From contig NZ_SOCE01000001.1 in assembly GCF_004365175.1 (NCBI RefSeq), positions 3,231,403 through 3,295,402 on the forward strand: a stretch of DNA of 64,000 nucleotides, in the 5' to 3' direction. This stretch comes from Kribbella voronezhensis. GTDB taxonomy: Bacteria; Actinomycetota; Actinomycetes; Propionibacteriales; Kribbellaceae. Of the stretch, positions 6,681 through 24,630 are shown one piece after another. Made by a program: the position numbers and the translations under genes. The notes beneath the pieces were generated by a model that saw only the letters and a program-made list of their open reading frames with translations, ran no database searches and was not told the origin of the DNA. Positions within the stretch are counted from its first letter, which is position 1, and the number at the start of each line of letters is the position of its first letter.

Positions 6681-6828
6681 AGCACCGCGCCCAGCGCACG
6701 AGCGACCACGTGCGGCGGTAGCACCGCGCCCAGCGCACGAGCGACCGCGGGGGTGAGCGCAGCGGCGGACCCGGCGTACTGGCGTACCGGCGTACCGGCG
6801 TACCGGCGTACCGGCGTACCGGCGTACG
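6681..6828. repeat. GC-rich tandem repeats between convergent genes
   Basis: Two repeat types are adjacent. A 27-bp segment starting AGCACCGCGCCCAGCGCACG occurs at 6681-6707 and again at 6720-6746 (39-bp period). Next comes a run of seven 8-bp units, GGCGTACC with one variant at each end, at 6773-6828. The array fills the gap between the convergent cpt-like gene and nadE. It has no coding capacity of its own. Its number of copies is a likely slippage polymorphism. Confidence 0.9.
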
Positions 6829-10682: not shown

Positions 10683-10770
10683 GGAGGATTCGCCTAGAGG
10701 CCTAGGGCGCACGCTTGGAAAGCGTGTTGGGGGCAACCCCTCACGAGTTCGAATCTCGTATCCTCCGCCA
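10683..10770 (+). tRNA. tRNA-Ser (anticodon GGA)
   Basis: The acceptor strands GGAGGAT at 10683-10689 and ATCCTCC at 10760-10766 pair, followed by discriminator G and an encoded CCA. The anticodon arm reads CTTGGAAAG (anticodon GGA), there is a long class II variable arm (GTTGGGGGCAACCCC), and the T-loop is GTTCGAATC. A -10-like TATCCT lies about 9 bp upstream. It is the integration target of the AICE, whose own copy of the 3' half rebuilds the gene. Confidence 0.97.
10714..10770 (+). repeat. attL core of the AICE
   Basis: These 57 bp, from the anticodon stem of tRNA-Ser through CCA, recur without mismatch at 24574-24630. Similarity stops sharply on both sides. This copy is joined to the intact 5' half of the tRNA gene and comes from the element. 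The strand exchange probably occurred in or near the anticodon loop, as is typical for tyrosine integrases. Confidence 0.96.
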
Positions 10771-10916: not shown

Positions 10917-12239
10917 TCAGGCAGGCACAGACACCCCTGCCGGACCGTCGTCACGGCGACCCTTCTTCCGCTTCTTGCCCTTCGACTTCTTCCCCGCCTT
11001 GGTCTCGGGCTTCGCCCAGATCAGACCGCCGACGCGCTCGGCGATGTCCATGCGAACGACCGCAGTGACGTGCTGATAGCGCTTCACCATCGATGACGAT
11101 GACCAGCCCATCACGTCCATCACTGCCCGATCGGGAACTCCGAGCAAGAGCAGAACCGTCGCGGCGGCATGTCTGGCGTCATGCAATCGGCCTTCACGAA
11201 TCCCGGCCTTTGCCAGGATGTCCTTCCACTCCCGGTAGTCCATGTTCGGGCTGAGCGCCTGGCCGGTCCGCTTCGCGAAAACCCACCCCTCGTCTTTCCA
11301 GAGCTGCCGGGCCGTCACCCGCTCGGCGGCCTGCGCCTTCCAGTGCGCTTGCAGGATCTCCGTCAGCTCTGACGGCAGACCGATCGTCCGGCGTCCAGCA
11401 CGAGACTTCGTCGGCGACGTCTGCGATCGTGCCAGTTGTTTCCCCGGGCAGTGGCCAGGCTTTCGCCCGCATGGCTCGTCACAGCCATGCTTGTACTTCG
11501 GACGGTTGAGGCTTCGCCGGACCTTGAGAACGCCTTTCTCTAGGTCGATGTCGGACCATTTCAATCCCAGCGCCTCGCCCTGGCGCAACCCAAGTGCGAG
11601 CGCGATTGCCCACCGCACATTGTTTCGCCGCTTTCCCGCTTCCACGAGAATCGCCTGGATCTCTTCGACCGTGTACGGGTCGATCTCGTCGTCCTCGTCC
11701 AGGTCGAGACGCGGCGGGTTCGCCTTCTCGGCTGGATTATCTGCGGTCAGTGCACCGCGCTTTTCGGCCTCTCCCAACGCGGTCCGAATCGTGCGGTGCG
11801 CCTGATGAGCGGTGCCCGCGCTCGACCCGTTGTCCTGCATCTTCGTGTAGAAGCGCTCCAGGTGCTCAGGCTGCAACCTATTCAGCTTGTGGGCGCCGAG
11901 CCCCGGAATGAGATGCACGCGCACCGCGACTTCATAGGCGTCGTACGACCCATCGCGAAGGCCCGGGCGGGCGATCGTCAGCCAGTGCGTGAGCCATTCC
12001 GCGACGGTCCACTTCTTCTTTTCGGTCCGACGAACCTTGCCGCTATCGCGCTCCTTCTCCAACTCCTGAACGCGCGCCACAACGTCTTCCTTGCGCCTGC
12101 GTTTTACGTGCGGGCGGTTGGGTGTTCCGTCGTCCTTGACACCCATCGTCACTCGGCCGTGCCAGTAGCCATCTGAACCGAAGTAGATCGATGACCGGCC
12201 GTCAGGGTTCTTGTGACGCTTGTCGTCTTCTTCGCTCAC
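10917..12239 (-). CDS. int: Tyrosine-type site-specific integrase of the AICE (440 aa)
   Basis: It catalyses integration into and, with excisionase, excision from tRNA-Ser. An N-terminal SAM-like/AP2-type DNA-binding part precedes the catalytic domain. The catalytic Arg is in ALGLRQGEALGLKWSD, the HxxR box in LHDARHAAA, and the Tyr nucleophile in VKRYQHVT. The tail is very Lys-rich. A GTG at 12239 is preceded by AAAGGAACCCC and is chosen over the ATG at 12284, which lies inside xis. A Cys/His cluster between the Arg and His boxes (HGCDEPCGRKPGHC) is common in actinobacterial AICE integrases. Confidence 0.95.
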   Translation of the reverse strand: MSEEDDKRHKNPDGRSSIYFGSDGYWHGRVTMGVKDDGTPNRPHVKRRRKEDVVARVQELEKERDSGKVRRTEKKKWTVAEWLTHWLTIARPGLRDGSYDAYEVAVRVHLIPGLGAHKLNRLQPEHLERFYTKMQDNGSSAGTAHQAHRTIRTALGEAEKRGALTADNPAEKANPPRLDLDEDDEIDPYTVEEIQAILVEAGKRRNNVRWAIALALGLRQGEALGLKWSDIDLEKGVLKVRRSLNRPKYKHGCDEPCGRKPGHCPGKQLARSQTSPTKSRAGRRTIGLPSELTEILQAHWKAQAAERVTARQLWKDEGWVFAKRTGQALSPNMDYREWKDILAKAGIREGRLHDARHAAATVLLLLGVPDRAVMDVMGWSSSSMVKRYQHVTAVVRMDIAERVGGLIWAKPETKAGKKSKGKKRKKGRRDDGPAGVSVPA

Positions 12240-12252
12240 TGGGGTTCCTTTC

Positions 12253-12540
12253 CTAGGCGGCCTGTCGGCTATCGCGGGCGGCACCCCGAAGGCGATTGAT
12301 GTACTCGGTGATGCACTCCGCAGGGATGCGCCGCAGGCGACCGAGTGGGATCGATTCGAGGTCGCCTGACTTGACGAGGGCGAAGACGGTGGTCCGGCCG
12401 ATCCCGAGCTGCTGTGCGGCCTGCTCGACGGTTAGCAGAAGGGGCGCGGCGGTAAGGGTCGAATCTTCGGCGATGCTCATGGGGGAGAGATCTCCTTCGG
12501 TCCGTGCGAGTTGCTGGCTGGCTTGCGTCTGCGTAGTCAT
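12253..12540 (-). CDS. xis: Excisionase / MerR-type helix-turn-helix protein (95 aa)
   Basis: A small DNA-binding protein with LLLTVEQAAQQLGIGRTTVF followed by LVKSGDLESIPLGRLRRIP, the excisionase-family fold. It is thought to bend att DNA and steer the integrase to excision. An internal ATG at 12480, preceded by AAGGAG at a longer distance, is an alternative start that would drop a poorly ordered 20-residue N-terminus. It overlaps the upstream DUF3631 gene by 4 bp and precedes int by 13 bp, so these genes form an operon. Confidence 0.88.
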   Translation of the reverse strand: MTTQTQASQQLARTEGDLSPMSIAEDSTLTAAPLLLTVEQAAQQLGIGRTTVFALVKSGDLESIPLGRLRRIPAECITEYINRLRGAARDSRQAA

Positions 12541-13880
12541 GCGCTCTCACAGGTGGCGTGGCTGTGGTTCGAGAGGGGCTGTCGGCAACCAATGCATGTT
12601 GCTTGGGCGGACAGGTGGGGGTGATCCGTCCCATCCGTCCCAACCGTCCCTTCCCAGGTCAGAGCGGGGACGGATGGATTGTCGGGACGGTTCGAACCGT
12701 CCCGGGGAAGTGATCCGTCCCCGGCGTGACCTGGGATGGGACGGTTGGGACGGTTCGGTACGGGTTCCCCCTCGGTAGTGGTTTCGGCCTCGGTTGGGCA
12801 GTACCTCGCCCAGGTGTCTGCGAAGTCGTCGCGGGCGTATCCCTTGGATTGGGTGCCGTCTTCCCAGCGGTGGTTTTTCGGAGTGATGTCGTACTCACGA
12901 AGCAGAGCGGCCAGCCGCCGAACGGTGAGCCCTCCGGGCGCGGGCACTTCAGCCCAGGGCGACTCTTCGTCGTGCCGTAGCCGTTGCACGATGACCGTTG
13001 AGGGCAGCGCCCTTGCTGCACCGAATGCCGTCCGGCAATCGATCAGGAGCCGGATCGACTGAGACGCCTCGGTCGAGTCCTGAAGCTCAGCAATCAATGT
13101 CAGTGCAGCGTTCCGAGCCCGCCTCGGCCAATCTCCGCCCGCGAGATCTGCCAGGGCAATCAACGGTTCCCAGGTGTCCGCCGCGCGGTCTTCCAGTGGC
13201 ATCGCCGGGGCGGCGTTGGTGAGATCGTCCAGGTGCGCTGTGACCCATTCGTGCAGCCGGTCCCGCAGCTCGGCTAGCACCGGACCATCACGACGTACCC
13301 GATACGGATAGACGGTTTCACCGGCCGCCCGCCGACGCATCCGGATCACGGCCGCCCGGTCCTCGATCGTGTCCGGCATCATGCCGATTCCGGCGAGTGC
13401 CGCCATGGCGAAGGTTTCGATCTGCTCGACCGACCGGGAACCGGCGTCATAGCGAAGCGTCGGACGGCCGCGCTGATGACCGGCGTTGAGCAGGCCGCGC
13501 AGGTCTTCGTTGTCGCCTGCCTTGGGGCCAAAGATCGTGTCGGCCTCGTCGATCAGCAACGTCGGCGGGTCAGACGGCGTGAGGCCAATCGACCGGTACA
13601 CGGCAGACGGGGAGGCGTTGGTGGTCATCAGCGGCCGGTGCGACAACCCATCGGCCATGTCCAACAGCCGCGACTTCCCACAGCGCTTCTCTGGCGCCCG
13701 GATCACCAACCGAGGCGCACAGTTCCACGCCGAAACCGCATGCGTGGCAGCGATCCACAGCACGACGGCGACACCGGCCGCCTCGCTCGGCAGTACGACG
13801 TACCGGGCAATGACGGCCCGGACCTCATCCAGCAGTTCGGCGCCGTTCATGGTCTCTCCGGTGTCGTTGGTGGTGCTCAT
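12537..13880 (-). CDS. DUF3631 ATPase-like replication protein (447 aa)
   Basis: The central region carries a P-loop-like APEKRCGKSRLLD and a Walker B-like TLLIDEADT, followed by the DUF3631 region (GGDWPRRARNAALTL and onwards). DUF3631 proteins are frequent in AICEs and phages next to prim-pol proteins and are thought to act as a helicase/loader for replication. The C-terminal 100 residues are Pro/Asn-rich, hold repeated RPNRP-type motifs, and end in a CIGC...HATC metal-ligand-like pattern. It overlaps both neighbours by 4 bp. Confidence 0.85.
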   Translation of the reverse strand: MSTTNDTGETMNGAELLDEVRAVIARYVVLPSEAAGVAVVLWIAATHAVSAWNCAPRLVIRAPEKRCGKSRLLDMADGLSHRPLMTTNASPSAVYRSIGLTPSDPPTLLIDEADTIFGPKAGDNEDLRGLLNAGHQRGRPTLRYDAGSRSVEQIETFAMAALAGIGMMPDTIEDRAAVIRMRRRAAGETVYPYRVRRDGPVLAELRDRLHEWVTAHLDDLTNAAPAMPLEDRAADTWEPLIALADLAGGDWPRRARNAALTLIAELQDSTEASQSIRLLIDCRTAFGAARALPSTVIVQRLRHDEESPWAEVPAPGGLTVRRLAALLREYDITPKNHRWEDGTQSKGYARDDFADTWARYCPTEAETTTEGEPVPNRPNRPIPGHAGDGSLPRDGSNRPDNPSVPALTWEGTVGTDGTDHPHLSAQATCIGCRQPLSNHSHATCESA

Positions 13881-14758
13881 GCGGCGATCCCTTCGTCACG
13901 GAAGCCGCCAGCGATGGCAGCTCTGATCTCTCGTGCGGTTTGGGCGGCTTGGTAGCCCACGTCGGTCAGGGCGTTGACGGCGTCGGTGTGGTCGATTGCT
14001 CCGGCCGCGACCATCCGCGCTACGCCTCTCGCAGCCCCATAGAGCGTCGTGCGGCGCTTGCCTTTAGGTGCTCGGCGTACGGCGTCCAGGTGGGCGCTGA
14101 GGAGCTTGTCCGGGTGGGAGATGCCCCCGCCCGGTTGGGTCGCGACAGCGCCGGTTTGCGGGGTGGACGAATCGGCCGGCGGGGGCGGCAGGCACGCGGC
14201 GATCAGGGCGGGGGGCATCTCTGCAGGCTCGGTCGGTCCGAGTTCGCTCCACTGATAGGGGCGGTGGGTGCGGTGGTGGATTGACGGCGGAAGGACGACG
14301 TACCCGCCGTCCGCCTTGATGTCGATGCCGGGAGATCCGGGCAGCGGCCGGGACAGCATGTGCTGTCCCGGGTGGCGGTAGTACAGGTGAAGCCCATCGG
14401 TGCCGGTGACGACTCGGAGAGTCTGGATGATGAGTCGTTCGGTGATGAGGTTGGCGAGGCTGTTCATGCCGCCGTGTGCGGGATCGACGTCGACCACCAG
14501 GACGCCGGACGCCGCGCCGGTGCGGACTGCGAGCTGACCACCCGGGACAGCGGCAACGATCGCGGCGACCCGAGCCGGATCGGTGCTTGCGGCGTAGAAG
14601 CCGTGGCAGGTCAGGTGACCACAGGTGGCCGGGTCATGAGCATCGAGCGGGCAGGCGTCGCAGTTGGCTACCGGCCGCTTGGAACGGCCGAGCATGAACA
14701 CCGGCCATCCTCGCCCGGCGGCAGCGAGTGCGGCGGTCAGGGTCTGGTTGCTGGTCAC
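13877..14758 (-). CDS. Bifunctional DNA primase/polymerase (prim-pol) (293 aa)
   Basis: The replication initiator of the RepPP-type AICE. The N-terminal prim-pol domain is shown by GWPVFMLGRSKRPVA, a Cys-rich DACPLDAHDPATCGH segment, LAVRTGAASGVLVVDVDP (catalytic DxD), and GIDIKADGGYVVLPPS. The C-terminal part is helical. A GTG at 14756-14758 overlaps the stop of the upstream gene (GTGA), which fixes the start. Together with the DUF3631 protein it makes the replication module. Confidence 0.9.
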   Translation of the reverse strand: MTSNQTLTAALAAAGRGWPVFMLGRSKRPVANCDACPLDAHDPATCGHLTCHGFYAASTDPARVAAIVAAVPGGQLAVRTGAASGVLVVDVDPAHGGMNSLANLITERLIIQTLRVVTGTDGLHLYYRHPGQHMLSRPLPGSPGIDIKADGGYVVLPPSIHHRTHRPYQWSELGPTEPAEMPPALIAACLPPPPADSSTPQTGAVATQPGGGISHPDKLLSAHLDAVRRAPKGKRRTTLYGAARGVARMVAAGAIDHTDAVNALTDVGYQAAQTAREIRAAIAGGFRDEGIAA

Positions 14759-15126
14759 TTCTTGTCTCCCTTGCTGGTCGAGTTGGTTCCGGCGCCTCGG
14801 GTGGCGCGGATGTGGTTGATGACGTGGCGCCCGAGTCGCACTCGCAGGCCGGAGCCTTCGCACTTGCCGCAGTGGCGGTATGCCTTGCCGAACGGGGATT
14901 TGAACTTGCCTTCGCCCTTGCAGCGGTGGCACTTCCCGAACGGCCAGACAGCGCAGGTGAACAGGTAGAAGGCGATGAGCCCGGTCACGATGAGTGCGAC
15001 TGTCGCGGCCTGACTCGCGGTGTGGAGGGTGGCGGCGAGGTCGGCCGACAGCGGCAGTGAGCCGCTACCTGCGCCGCTACCGTGGGTAGCGCCTGTGAAG
15101 GTGGAGGTAGCGAGGGTGCTGGGCAT
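14755..15126 (-). CDS. Small membrane protein with a DnaJ-like zinc-ribbon (123 aa)
   Basis: I do not recognise a named family. Residues about 40-62 form one hydrophobic helix (ATVALIVTGLIAFYLFTCAV). After it comes a cytoplasmic-looking basic region with two CxxCxGxG motifs, CHRCKGEG and CGKCEGSG, as in DnaJ cysteine-rich domains. The gene lies between the transfer and replication modules and is translationally coupled to the prim-pol gene. Its 5' end overlaps the heptamer cluster. A role in transfer or at the membrane-replication interface is speculation. Confidence 0.75.
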   Translation of the reverse strand: MPSTLATSTFTGATHGSGAGSGSLPLSADLAATLHTASQAATVALIVTGLIAFYLFTCAVWPFGKCHRCKGEGKFKSPFGKAYRHCGKCEGSGLRVRLGRHVINHIRATRGAGTNSTSKGDKK

Positions 15127-15271
15127 GGAAAGCCTCCAGTGGGCTGTTTTTGGGCGTGAGGAGCCTGAGCCGCGACCCGCTACCTGCGGATATACGGCCT
15201 GGTCAGTGCTGGGTTGTGGGGTAGCGGAGCGGGTAGCGTTGCCGCTACCGGTAGCGGTGAGCGCGCTACCT
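15062..15271. repeat. Cluster of ten CGCTACC/GGTAGCG heptamers, candidate clt locus
   Basis: The hexamer core GCTACC (or GGTAGC) begins at 15064, 15076, 15085, 15106, 15179, 15220, 15232, 15244, 15250 and 15265. Each is extended to the same heptamer, five in each orientation. Copies at 15244 and 15250 form a perfect 16-bp palindrome, CCGCTACCGGTAGCGG, at 15242-15257. The cluster spans the start of the zinc-ribbon gene and the 174-bp gap after the traB-like gene. Streptomyces TraB proteins recognise short repeated motifs at a clt locus near traB, so this is the best candidate here. An iteron origin is the alternative. Confidence 0.7.
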
Positions 15272-15300: not shown

Positions 15301-17502
15301 TTACGCTCCGTTGATGTTGTCGCGGCGGTTGATCGCTGCACGGATGTCATCGGCCTTGGCTCCCTTGCGGGTCGCGCCGTCGCGCTTGACGTTGACGCTG
15401 GGCACATTCAGGCCGCGTGCCTGAGCCGAGATCGCCTCGGCGGTGGTGCCCTCGTACTGCTCGGGCATGTCCTGAGCCAGCCGTCCGGCGATGGTGTCCC
15501 AGTGCGCGGCGTTGTCGCTGCCCATCACGGTCAGCACATCAGCCAGCACGTCACGCGTGGCACGCTCGATCTCTTCTCCGGCCGCCTCGCCGGTCAGCGT
15601 GCCGAGCCGTTCGCGGTGACCTCGGGCAGCGGTAAGGATCTTCTCCGCGTCGCTGTGGTCGGCCAGGAACGTCCGCACCGTGGGTGTCGCGTCGGACGCG
15701 CCGTACAGGTAGCCGACGCCCCGATATTCGTCGCCGACCGGGAGCGAGCTGGCGTCGAAGCCTTCGGCGTAGGCGTCGCCACCTAGAACGGCTTCGGAGA
15801 CGACGCGGTTGCCGCAACGCAGCGCGAACCGGTTGGTGTGGTTGTCCCTGTACCGGTTGAACAACCGCGCCACGTCACCCGCGCCGACGCCGCCCGGCTT
15901 CTGCGAGCACGATTCGATGATCACACCGGCCGACGGCCCAACGGCCTGGATCCGCGACAGCTTCGCCGCGAACTCCTTGTTGACCGCCTGGTCCTCGGTC
16001 TCGAAGTAGACCTGAAACTCTTCCATCACCAGCATCAGCACCCGCAGATCCGGGTAACGCGGGTCGCGGGCCAGCTCCTCGGTCAGCTTCCCTTCCGGGC
16101 ACTGGTCAACCGGCAGCGTGGTCAGGATCGAGTTCACGCGGTCAATGTGGGCAAGGATCTCGTCCAGGATCGCCCGGAAGTGCTCGATCGGGTCGGAGTC
16201 GTTAGGGTTCGGGTGCGTCCCGAAAACGATGCGGTGGGCAACCAACTTGAACTTCAGCCAGTCCGGAGAGTTCTTGCCGTCCACCACGATCAACTTTACG
16301 TACGGGTCCAGCGCGGCATGCAGAGCGATCAGGCGGGCGGCGAACGTCTTGCCCTTGCGCGGCTGGGCACCGATCAGCAGCGATGCCCACAGAAGAGACA
16401 GGTTGACCGGGTTGTCACGCTCATCGCGACCGAACTTCACCGGCCGCCACACCGAGCGCGGCTTGCAGTCCAGCATGTCCGTGCGACCCACCGGCACCGC
16501 GAGCGGGTCAGTGTCGGCCACGAACAGCGTGTGGCGGCGCGAGCTGGTTTTGTCCGGGGACAAGAACACCTGATTGACGTGCACATCAAGGCCAGAGGCG
16601 ATCTTCTCGCGCGCACCTGCAACATCGGACCAGCCCTTGCCGTACGGGAGATCCACCAGCACCTGAGAGCCAGTGTTGCGGGCATCGCGCGACATCTGCG
16701 AACCGAACCGGATCTCCTGATCGGCCTTGTCCGGCTTGCCGAGTCCGGCCGCGTAGTAGGCGCGCAGCACGATGTCCGAGTTCAGCTTGCGATACCTCGG
16801 AGCAACCACCGCAGTACCGACCAGCGTCTGACCGGCCGGACGGCCATAGTGCGCCAGCGCAGCGACCGCACCGGCTCCCGCAGCCGCTAGAAGCCCTGCG
16901 GGAGCGGCGTTCCAGGCGATCGGCGCACTAACGGCCAGGGCAAGGTTCTGAGCCGCCAGAACGCCACCACGCCAAAGCCGGGTTGCCTTGAGCTGACGGT
17001 GGATCTTCTCCCACTCCCTCAGCTCGGACGCGTCTGCGGCCTTCTGCTCAAGGGCAAACGAGTTCGGCACCCACCACCACTGAATCTGGCTACGCACCAG
17101 CCGGGTGAAGCCGCGACCCGCGAACCAGGACAGCTTCGCGCCATACCAAGGCGAGCGAACCGCGTGGAACGCGGCCACATGACCCGAACGGGCCAGCGCG
17201 CGGCTGATCGTGACCCGCAGGTTCTCCGGGCGCAGGTGAACCGGGATGATCGGCAGCCGCTCCCCCACCGCGACCGCTACCGGCATGCCCGGCTTGTCTA
17301 CCGGCGTCAGTACCTTGCCCGCACCCGGGTCGGTGTCGGTGTCGTCGTCCAGGGCGACTTCGTACGCCGTATCCATCCGCTCAACCTCGGCCGCTGACAG
17401 CGTCACCATTTGGCCGGCCCTCTCGGCCGACCCCTGCGCGGTGTCGTCGCGGCGGGCGCGGCGAGCGTCCAGATCGATCGGTTCAGGAATCTGCTCGGTC
17501 AT
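15301..17502 (-). CDS. FtsK/SpoIIIE-type conjugative DNA translocase, TraB-like (733 aa)
   Basis: The transfer ATPase of the AICE, thought to pump double-stranded DNA through a membrane pore during mycelial mating. A hydrophobic stretch at about residues 180-218 is the membrane part. Walker A GAQPRKGKT is at 378-386 and Walker B LRVLMLVMEE near 486-495. A C-terminal winged-helix-like segment (TAEAISAQARGLNVPSVNVK) corresponds to the gamma-type DNA-recognition domain. It heads an operon with the small gene at 17505 and the DUF2637-like gene. Confidence 0.9.
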   Translation of the reverse strand: MTEQIPEPIDLDARRARRDDTAQGSAERAGQMVTLSAAEVERMDTAYEVALDDDTDTDPGAGKVLTPVDKPGMPVAVAVGERLPIIPVHLRPENLRVTISRALARSGHVAAFHAVRSPWYGAKLSWFAGRGFTRLVRSQIQWWWVPNSFALEQKAADASELREWEKIHRQLKATRLWRGGVLAAQNLALAVSAPIAWNAAPAGLLAAAGAGAVAALAHYGRPAGQTLVGTAVVAPRYRKLNSDIVLRAYYAAGLGKPDKADQEIRFGSQMSRDARNTGSQVLVDLPYGKGWSDVAGAREKIASGLDVHVNQVFLSPDKTSSRRHTLFVADTDPLAVPVGRTDMLDCKPRSVWRPVKFGRDERDNPVNLSLLWASLLIGAQPRKGKTFAARLIALHAALDPYVKLIVVDGKNSPDWLKFKLVAHRIVFGTHPNPNDSDPIEHFRAILDEILAHIDRVNSILTTLPVDQCPEGKLTEELARDPRYPDLRVLMLVMEEFQVYFETEDQAVNKEFAAKLSRIQAVGPSAGVIIESCSQKPGGVGAGDVARLFNRYRDNHTNRFALRCGNRVVSEAVLGGDAYAEGFDASSLPVGDEYRGVGYLYGASDATPTVRTFLADHSDAEKILTAARGHRERLGTLTGEAAGEEIERATRDVLADVLTVMGSDNAAHWDTIAGRLAQDMPEQYEGTTAEAISAQARGLNVPSVNVKRDGATRKGAKADDIRAAINRRDNINGA

Positions 17503-17758: not shown

Positions 17759-18616
17759 TCACTTCTCCCCGGTCTGGAACAGGCGGGCGCGGAGCTGGCG
17801 GAACCGGCTCGGTATGCGGATGGGTTGTGGTCCGGCGTGGACCAGGTGGGCAAGGGCGGCGCCCATGCCGAGCACGGCGACGGGCAGGCAGGCGACAACG
17901 GTGGTGATCTGCCACGGCGCCCGGGTGACCCCGGCTGCCTCTAGCAGGTGGTAGGCGACCTGACCGAGCGCGCCCAGGACCAGAGCGGCCAGAGCCGACC
18001 ACTTCGCGAACTGGCGAGCCGATGCCGGAACTTGACCCGACAGCCAGACCCGCAGCGCGAACGCGGCATAGGTCTCGACACCGATCGGCAACGTGATGGC
18101 GGAGTTGATGGTGAAACCGTCCGCGATCCCGGGCAGCGGGTGGACCACCCCGAACCCGGTCAGCGTGCCCAGTCCGACCCACCCGGACCAGACCGCGACG
18201 AACGCGGGCAGAGCCAGCAACAGCACCGGCCAAGTCCGGACCGGCCCGGCGTCCTGAGAGGCAGCCGCGGGGACCTCCTCAGACCGGGCGGAGCTGGCAT
18301 CGATTCCCGGTTCTACCTGCGGCGTGACCTGCGGAGATGCCCCCGCCCCCGGCGCGAGGGGCAACTCCTCGTCACCCGCGTCAGACTCAGTCTGGAACCG
18401 ATTCGGTACGGCGTGAAGGTGAGGCTCAGCGGCGGCCGGGGTGGTCTCCTCGGTGAGGCCAGCGATGACGGCGCGGGCCTTATCGGCACCGATCCGGAAC
18501 TCGCTCTTGATCCGGTTCTGTGACGGGATCCTGCCCAGCTCGGCGGCGAGCTCGCGGGCAGCCGGGATCAGGTCCTCAACCGGTACCGGGTAGGTCGTGC
18601 GAAGCGGTGTACTCAT
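17759..18616 (-). CDS. DUF2637/SpdB-like membrane protein (285 aa)
   Basis: An N-terminal helical part (residues 1-60) with the look of a DNA-binding helix-turn-helix, GRIPSQNRIKSEFRIGADKA, is followed by an Ala/Pro-rich linker. Then come four or five transmembrane helices (WPVLLLALPAFVAVWSG; ITLPIGVETYAAFALRVWL; WSALAALVLGALGQVAYHLL; ITTVVACLPVAVLGMGAALA). AICEs and Streptomyces plasmids often carry such proteins next to traB as spread (Spd) proteins. The overlap with DUF6284 downstream of its own promoter indicates one operon. Confidence 0.8.
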   Translation of the reverse strand: MSTPLRTTYPVPVEDLIPAARELAAELGRIPSQNRIKSEFRIGADKARAVIAGLTEETTPAAAEPHLHAVPNRFQTESDAGDEELPLAPGAGASPQVTPQVEPGIDASSARSEEVPAAASQDAGPVRTWPVLLLALPAFVAVWSGWVGLGTLTGFGVVHPLPGIADGFTINSAITLPIGVETYAAFALRVWLSGQVPASARQFAKWSALAALVLGALGQVAYHLLEAAGVTRAPWQITTVVACLPVAVLGMGAALAHLVHAGPQPIRIPSRFRQLRARLFQTGEK

Positions 18617-24573: not shown

Positions 24574-24630
24574 CTTGGAAAGCGTGTTGGGGGCAACCCC
24601 TCACGAGTTCGAATCTCGTATCCTCCGCCA
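24574..24630 (+). repeat. attR core of the AICE
   Basis: An exact 57-bp copy of the tRNA-Ser 3' half, including the T arm and CCA, but without the 5' half, so it is not a functional tRNA. It marks the right end of the element and is the original chromosomal 3' end of the gene. Confidence 0.96.

Follow-up and report, generated by a model that had tools for sequence, protein, structure and literature searches.

The window, by which we mean the whole 64-kb stretch of DNA that was analysed, contains a 13.9-kb actinomycete integrative and conjugative element (AICE) that is integrated in a tRNA-Ser gene and bounded by 57-bp repeats. A repeat search places the first att repeat, which is the 3' part of tRNA-Ser(GGA), at 10714–10770 and the second copy, at the other end of the element, at 24574–24630, both on the + strand. 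Between them, and all on the − strand, are found a tyrosine integrase (10917–12284, profile match), an HTH_17 protein whose excisionase-like character we infer from this domain and from its place (12253–12540), a replication gene of the RepAM type matching the DUF3631 profile (12537–13880), a bifunctional primase/polymerase (Prim-Pol) ORF, likewise assigned by profile match (13877–14932), and a small membrane or zinc-ribbon-like ORF with a weak match to a DnaJ zinc domain, below cut-off (14755–15126). They are followed by traB (15301–17502), which encodes an FtsK/SpoIIIE-type DNA translocase of 733 residues with a Walker-A-like motif (GAQPRKGKT), recognised by its homology to pSVH1 TraB, and by a membrane protein (17759–18616) that we call SpdB-like on account of its position, the label not resting on a family match. 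The modules expected of an AICE, as given in the accessible part of the source (PMC3218068), are an integrase, a replication module, an FtsK-type Tra and att sites in a tRNA gene, and RepAM is there equated with DUF3631. The element has all of these and an excisionase-like protein as well, and it is an AICE by its gene content and att repeats, there being no experimental data on its excision or conjugation.

Layout and statistics of the heptamer array

Just past traB lies a cluster in which the heptamer CGCTACC, or its complement GGTAGCG, occurs as ten exact copies within 208 bp (15063–15270), five in each orientation. The + strand copies, of 7 bp each as are the others, start at 15063, 15075, 15178, 15243 and 15264, and those on the − strand at 15085, 15106, 15220, 15232 and 15250, two abutting heptamers forming the perfect 16-bp palindrome CCGCTACCGGTAGCGG at 15242–15257. 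A sequence-only reading of this DNA had reported the ten copies, five each way, as well as the palindrome, and an exact count and a sequence check bear out both statements. Its further claim that such clustering exceeds chance also holds, as in 60 simulated 64-kb windows (first-order Markov) the maximum per 210 bp was 1 in 52 runs and 2 in 8 runs, compared with the 10 copies observed. The window has 21 copies in total, 10 of them inside the cluster, where 7.55 are expected and the maximum in 100 shuffles was 15. When all heptamers are ranked over the window in 210-bp steps, the CGCTACC cluster comes out on top with its 10 copies, and the runner-up is CCGTCCC, with 9 copies near 12600, in another cluster of the same element. 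Four of the heptamers (15063–15112) lie within the 5' end of the small − strand ORF 14755–15126, so that the cluster is only partly intergenic.

The sequence-only reading had accepted that an equal density of the heptamer elsewhere in the genome would speak against a special role; the genome-wide counts are of close pairs. Of the 4 places in the 8.03-Mb genome with close inverted pairs (CGCTACCN0-12GGTAGCG), two belong to the 15063–15270 cluster, a third to its counterpart in a second AICE and the last to neither. Close direct pairs (CGCTACCN0-14CGCTACC) are present at 11 places, and the two AICE clusters account for 8. The reversed control patterns gave 4 places for the inverted pairs and 8 matches for the direct pairs genome-wide, from which it follows that the genome total of close heptamer pairs is not raised. 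What is unusual about these pairs is their concentration in two spots, not their total.

The second AICE just mentioned is integrated in the same genome at tRNA-Phe, with 43-bp repeats (L008, G000:C1:2935001-2955000, from about 7994 onward). Its TraB is 88% identical and it has eight copies of the same heptamer at the same place, while its integrase differs (28.6%). The tRNA-Ser and the tRNA-Phe AICEs may be able to move each other.

Homology of TraB and model of its C-terminal domain

The gene next to the cluster had been called TraB-like from the letters alone, and this assignment is confirmed: the cluster extends from 31 to 238 bp past the stop codon of traB, whose product is homologous to pSVH1 TraB (hhalign probability 99.65%, E 4e-25, residues 281–667; tblastn 31%). 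The protein has no Pfam match at E≤10, including FtsK_SpoIIIE (PF01580), which pSVH1 TraB matches at 5e-12, and no NCBIfam match above cut-off. In view of the clear kinship to pSVH1 TraB, the absence of these matches is a gap in the family libraries.

The winged helix-turn-helix that had been proposed at the C-terminus of the 15301–17502 protein agrees with an AlphaFold2 model of residues 622–733, computed with 90 sequences, which predicts a winged-helix domain at residues 652–732 (15307–15549, − strand), with pLDDT ≥90 for most of the domain from about residue 652 on. The modelled helices comprise residues 652–660, 668–678, 688–697 and 717–732, and the strands of the wing residues 703–707 and 710–716. 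In the model, residues 704 (15391–15393), 706 (15385–15387) and 711 (15370–15372), which covary with the motif as described below, are thus predicted to be part of the wing and not of the third helix, and a location of the three on one face of the hairpin is inferred from the strand positions. No Foldseek match to this model reached E≤0.001, and the Foldseek/VIA entries are for the most part winged helices of a generic kind, PadR and FOX among them, with Z up to 6.3. The FtsK gamma domain is not among the matches listed for this model, which proves nothing. Comparison of the TraB profile with solved structures gave nothing meaningful, the one entry being a ribosomal protein at E 0.21.

Conservation of the array in related elements

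Relatives were gathered from several sets of genomes. TraB was matched in 17 of the 38 family genomes (E≤1e-20) and in 55 of the 394 class genomes (E≤1e-30), a second family (35 genomes, to which a search at the order level added none) contributed 7 matches at E≤1e-100 and a third (341 genomes) 32, and GTDB contigs supplied 28 TraB loci, of which Kribbella makes up the closest set; the 22 genomes searched in the family around G272 gave no TraB match. Of the 161 loci gathered, 79 non-redundant TraB loci were retained, a reason being recorded for the exclusion of the other 82. Each was classified by the commonest motif, present in at least 3 copies, in the 300 bp past the traB stop, resulting in 51 loci with CGCTACC, 12 with CGCGACC, 8 with GTTAC[C/A] (the T3 class, counted with a looser six-letter pattern), 6 with CGCTACA and 2 that are unclear. 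At least 3 copies of one word of this family are found in the 300 bp past traB in 77 of these 79 close loci, and those from GTDB contigs represent nine named genera, two of them with a variant word only. Where CGCTACC is rare or absent, most of the copies at the same place have changed to CGCGACC, GTTAC[C/A] or CGCTACA, the 6 CGCTACA loci retaining 1–2 copies of CGCTACC each.

In a separate test with its own locus filter, the 250 bp that follow the traB stop contain a significantly repeated heptamer (p≤0.02) in 70/79 close and 34/60 distant loci, in comparison to 3/79 and 0/60 for the final 250 bp of traB itself and 8/79 and 0/60 for the next 250 bp further downstream. The 60 distant loci include pSVH1, and in 26 of them a significant heptamer cluster is absent. 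Within the Kribbella arrays (n=21) the site columns are on average 96.9% identical and the columns between sites 83.4%. As to orientation, both directions occur in 63/63 loci of the CGCTACC and CGCGACC classes (287 + and 205 −), with recurring spacings, namely −+ at 11 bp (56 times), ++ at 12 bp (45), +− at 7 bp (34) and −− at 7 bp (23). The inverted arrangement had been taken as a possible sign of a new type of locus. As a regular property of these arrays it is upheld; by itself it does not rule out a clt, as published clt loci are described with direct and/or inverted repeats, at least in the accessible part of PMC3583192.

Covariation between the motif and the TraB wing

When 675 TraB columns were scored blind for association with motif class, the highest normalised score fell to column 706, followed by 704, with 711 in fifth place, and the third and fourth ranks were taken by columns 499 and 450 of the TraB body, some of whose columns rank high because of shared ancestry. 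Individual bases of the motif correlate with individual residues: base 3 with 704, base 4 with 711 and base 7 with 706. Thus K706 is changed to R in 6/6 CGCTACA loci, residue 704 is A or P in 7/8 GTTAC[C/A] loci and in 0/69 others, and the residue that precedes [R/L]KG, which is 711 here, is A, S or P in 12/12 CGCGACC loci; of the 50 CGCTACC loci on the tree, 49 have T, V or N at this position. The A/S/P set was picked after the data had been viewed, a reservation which the blind scans answer only in part. There are also exceptions, as L061 has a P before RKG and yet carries CGCTACC, L065 combines mixed motifs with N704/Q706, L068 is mixed 3:3, and L070 is without a clear motif.

On a TraB tree built without the C-terminal domain, the CGCGACC label requires at least 7 changes on well-supported branches. 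Among the independent well-supported pairs (n=7), 6–7 agree and none opposes (sign-test p 0.016–0.031), and residue 711 is the only one of the 733 columns that differs in 7/7 CGCGACC/CGCTACC sister pairs. Two of these seven pairs belong to a single Actinomadura clade, so that the same switch may underlie both, and in L054 and L057 a two-residue insertion shifts the alignment at 711 and blurs it. The T3 and base-7 switches offer only 3 and 4 independent pairs, which are too few for significance. A close comparison is provided by L075 and L098, both in genome G053, whose TraB bodies are 99% identical over 260 columns and whose wings and arrays differ; similarly, L055 and L057, with different motifs, are both found in Actinomadura montaniterrae. 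The coexistence of two motifs in one genome is a strong argument against a binder supplied by the host. The expectation that the specificity for the motif would be set by the winged-helix domain of TraB is met, as judged from covariation only and with no binding data.

Since four heptamers overlap the start of the small zinc-ribbon ORF (14755–15126), the array might instead be the operator of that ORF, its product acting as SpdA does on its own sps palindromes within spdA. Such an arrangement has a precedent in SpdA2 of pIJ101, a protein with zinc-finger hits whose target palindromes are located in the gene that encodes it, according to the accessible part of PMC4170104, and palindromic sites within the start of a small zinc-finger-like gene are indeed what the array has in common with sps. 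However, the array is kept in L094, L067 and L097, where the next ORF lacks the C-x2-C motif, and in L054, L055, L057 and L149, where the ORF is an unrelated-looking protein with C-x2-C pairs. In addition, TraB outscores the ORF in the 42 T4/G4 loci where the latter is present: its best column, again 711, reaches 0.489, compared with 0.338 for the best column of the ORF, and all but one of the top 8 TraB columns fall within the winged helix; unlike sps, the AICE motif covaries more with TraB than with the small gene. We find this explanation very unlikely. The ORF was also not found in 14/14 T3/A7 loci, by a test that misses L052 and L056, and L063 has C-x2-C pairs. An assignment of the array as a sps, that is, as a site located in a spdA-like gene and travelling with it, was rejected, the ORF being replaced in some clades. 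As a separate observation, the heptamers at the start of the small gene in L075 and L098 are translated into Ala-Thr-Ala-Thr whichever motif class they belong to, and a change between GCTACC and GCGACC that is silent in the small gene is expected if the DNA word is under selection.

Replication genes and the second repeat of the element

The sequence-only reading had left room for an iteron origin, in which the DUF3631 or the Prim-Pol protein would bind the heptamers to start replication. Direct and inverted repeats near replication genes do resemble iterons, and the Prim-Pol ORF starts less than 400 bp from the cluster. This alternative is nevertheless not supported, as the cluster or a variant word is found near five kinds of replication-type genes: within ~5 kb of the heptamers are a diverged Prim-Pol (L044, L059), AAA_25 (L045, L046), DnaB-N/DUF3987 (L055) and DUF3631 (L049, L050), and in L063 a polA-Prim-Pol fusion together with a diverged DUF3631 lies within the same distance of the variant word CGTTACC. 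That the genes in this range belong to the element is assumed. Moreover, it is a different word, CCGTCCC, that goes with DUF3631, and the heptamer motif changes with the TraB wing. We consider it highly improbable that the heptamers are an origin of replication; repeats of that kind would travel with the replication initiator gene, and the CGCTACC cluster does not.

In the window, CCGTCCC is present nine times, in both orientations, at 12626–12753, an iteron-like cluster at the 3' end of the DUF3631 gene and a candidate replication origin. Among 29 loci scanned, some with short flanks, CCGTCCC reaches at least 5 copies per 260 bp in 7; six of these dense clusters immediately adjoin the 3' end of a DUF3631 match, and that of L062 is 525 bp past a partial DUF3631 match. 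In the same scan the cluster is absent from three DUF3631 loci (L037, L043 and L063). The 12626–12753 cluster is likely to represent the iterons of a replication origin. As the heptamer stays with traB and CCGTCCC with DUF3631, each of the two repeats in the element goes with a protein of its own.

Palindromic sites near the start of a gene are typical of operators, and the array could also be the target of a transcription regulator, coded by the element or by the host, for traB or for the small gene. Against this, ten copies pointing both ways are more than an operator usually has, the array is past the end of traB and not at its start, no GntR-type regulator is found among the 14 window ORFs scanned, a set that does not take in every ORF of the element, and the different motifs in two elements of one genome (L075/L098; L055/L057) speak against a host regulator, which leaves this explanation with hardly any credit. 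Finally, pairing of the heptamers within a transcript, whose folding was not computed, is an idea of negligible weight: inverted copies can pair, and a concerted change of the motif preserves pairing, but direct pairs also occur at fixed spacings (the 12-bp ++ and 7-bp −− pairs counted above), copies that abut (CGCTACCGGTAGCG) leave no loop, and the covariation with TraB residues remains unexplained.

Comparison with known systems

The plasmid pSVH1 of Streptomyces venezuelae served as a control. For GACCCGGA, which we take to be its TraB recognition motif, 5 of the 7 copies on the plasmid are 16–114 bp past the traB stop, four on the + and one on the − strand. The AICE array is similar to this clt in being a short repeated motif directly 3' of a homologous traB, and distinct from it in being composed of a seven-letter motif in ten copies, five each way, with recurring spacings. 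A further distinction concerns recognition, which in pSVH1 TraB is attributed to the C-terminal winged helix with helix alpha3 as the named determinant, as far as the accessible part of PMC3583192 goes, whereas the covariation in the AICE TraB points to the wing. According to the same part of that source, the clt loci of pIJ101, pJV1 and pWTY27 differ among themselves but all contain several repeats, direct and/or inverted, and TraA of pWTY27 leaves footprints on the repeats of its clt. These loci share with the AICE array the short direct or inverted repeats at a tra gene or needed with tra, and differ in having other motifs and in belonging to autonomous plasmids.

With pSAM2 and its relatives the element has in common the integrase, replication and FtsK-type Tra modules and an att site in a tRNA gene; no clt motif is described for pSAM2 in the available portion of PMC9513070, unlike the candidate clt family defined here for another AICE TraB clade. 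The current view, as expressed in the accessible text of PMC12857230, is that TraB binds 8-bp clt repeats and moves double-stranded DNA. We found no prior description of a clt or of a motif for the present AICE TraB clade in the open-licence literature. A related principle is that of KOPS, a short DNA word recognised by FtsK gamma, which is the C-terminal winged helix of a hexameric DNA translocase. KOPS is read as directional, in contrast to the AICE array with its two orientations in every one of the 63 loci counted.

Proposed role of the array

The proposal of the sequence-only reading that the cluster is a clt recognised by TraB is supported by its position directly 3' of traB, like the repeats of pSVH1, by the fact that it remains with traB when the replication module changes, and by the covariation of its motif with the TraB C-terminal winged helix. 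We estimate at about 0.9 the probability that the ten heptamers at 15063–15270, proposed here as a clt from their counts and their conservation 3' of traB in relatives, are the TraB recognition site for transfer of the element, for which no binding or transfer data exist. The cluster is very probably the docking site at which TraB recognises the DNA of its own element when this is passed from one soil bacterium to another, because its word changes together with a few residues of the DNA-binding tip of TraB across related elements.

With regard to mechanism, each heptamer would be read by the TraB of the same element, by means of the wing of its C-terminal domain, physical binding being inferred. 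After excision, TraB would gather on the array and form a ring around the circular double-stranded element, a loading step that is also inferred, and would then pump the excised circle into a neighbouring cell, the need for the array in cis being again a matter of inference. The array would most likely serve to mark the element's own DNA and to load the motor rather than to set the direction of travel: since the heptamers point both ways, identity and loading, and not direction, are the functions suggested.

What we regard as new is a candidate AICE clt with an inverted layout and a specificity code located in the wing rather than in helix alpha3, without binding data. In a broader and less certain form, which we favour with modest confidence, the wing of AICE TraBs would hold a code for DNA addresses that is able to evolve, changes at 704, 706 and 711 having repeatedly re-addressed some ten sites in concert. 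Elements in one cell could then keep separate transfer identities, as is suggested by L075 and L098, which share a genome, and the array would act as a loading site without direction, its geometry recurring and partly palindromic. A candidate clt is in this way provided for a large clade of AICE TraBs, together with a simple rule for finding others, which is to look just past traB, the region significant in 34/60 distant loci. The residue-to-base code is testable, its main switch requiring at least 7 changes on the TraB tree, and it would allow one to predict which elements in one cell can move each other and to test whether TraB needs directional sites.

Additional observations

A second conserved element of unknown function, CTGACCAG, with the consensus CTGACC[T/A]G, is inside the cluster at 15199–15206 on the − strand. 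It is found on the traB strand in 54/137 TraB 3' flanks, that of pSVH1 among them, and on the opposite strand in 4/137, compared with 2/137 and 5/137 on either strand in control stretches. Arrays with mixed words are seen in L046 and L157, in which CGCTACC (4 and 5 copies) stands beside CGCGACC (3 and 4 copies), and it is possible that they are evolutionary intermediates between two specificities. In L140 a short T3 array seems to end ~55 bp past traB and to be followed by different sequence, possibly as a damaged clt. Outside the AICE, the window contains seven tandem copies of GGCGTAC with an 8-bp period at 6773–6827.
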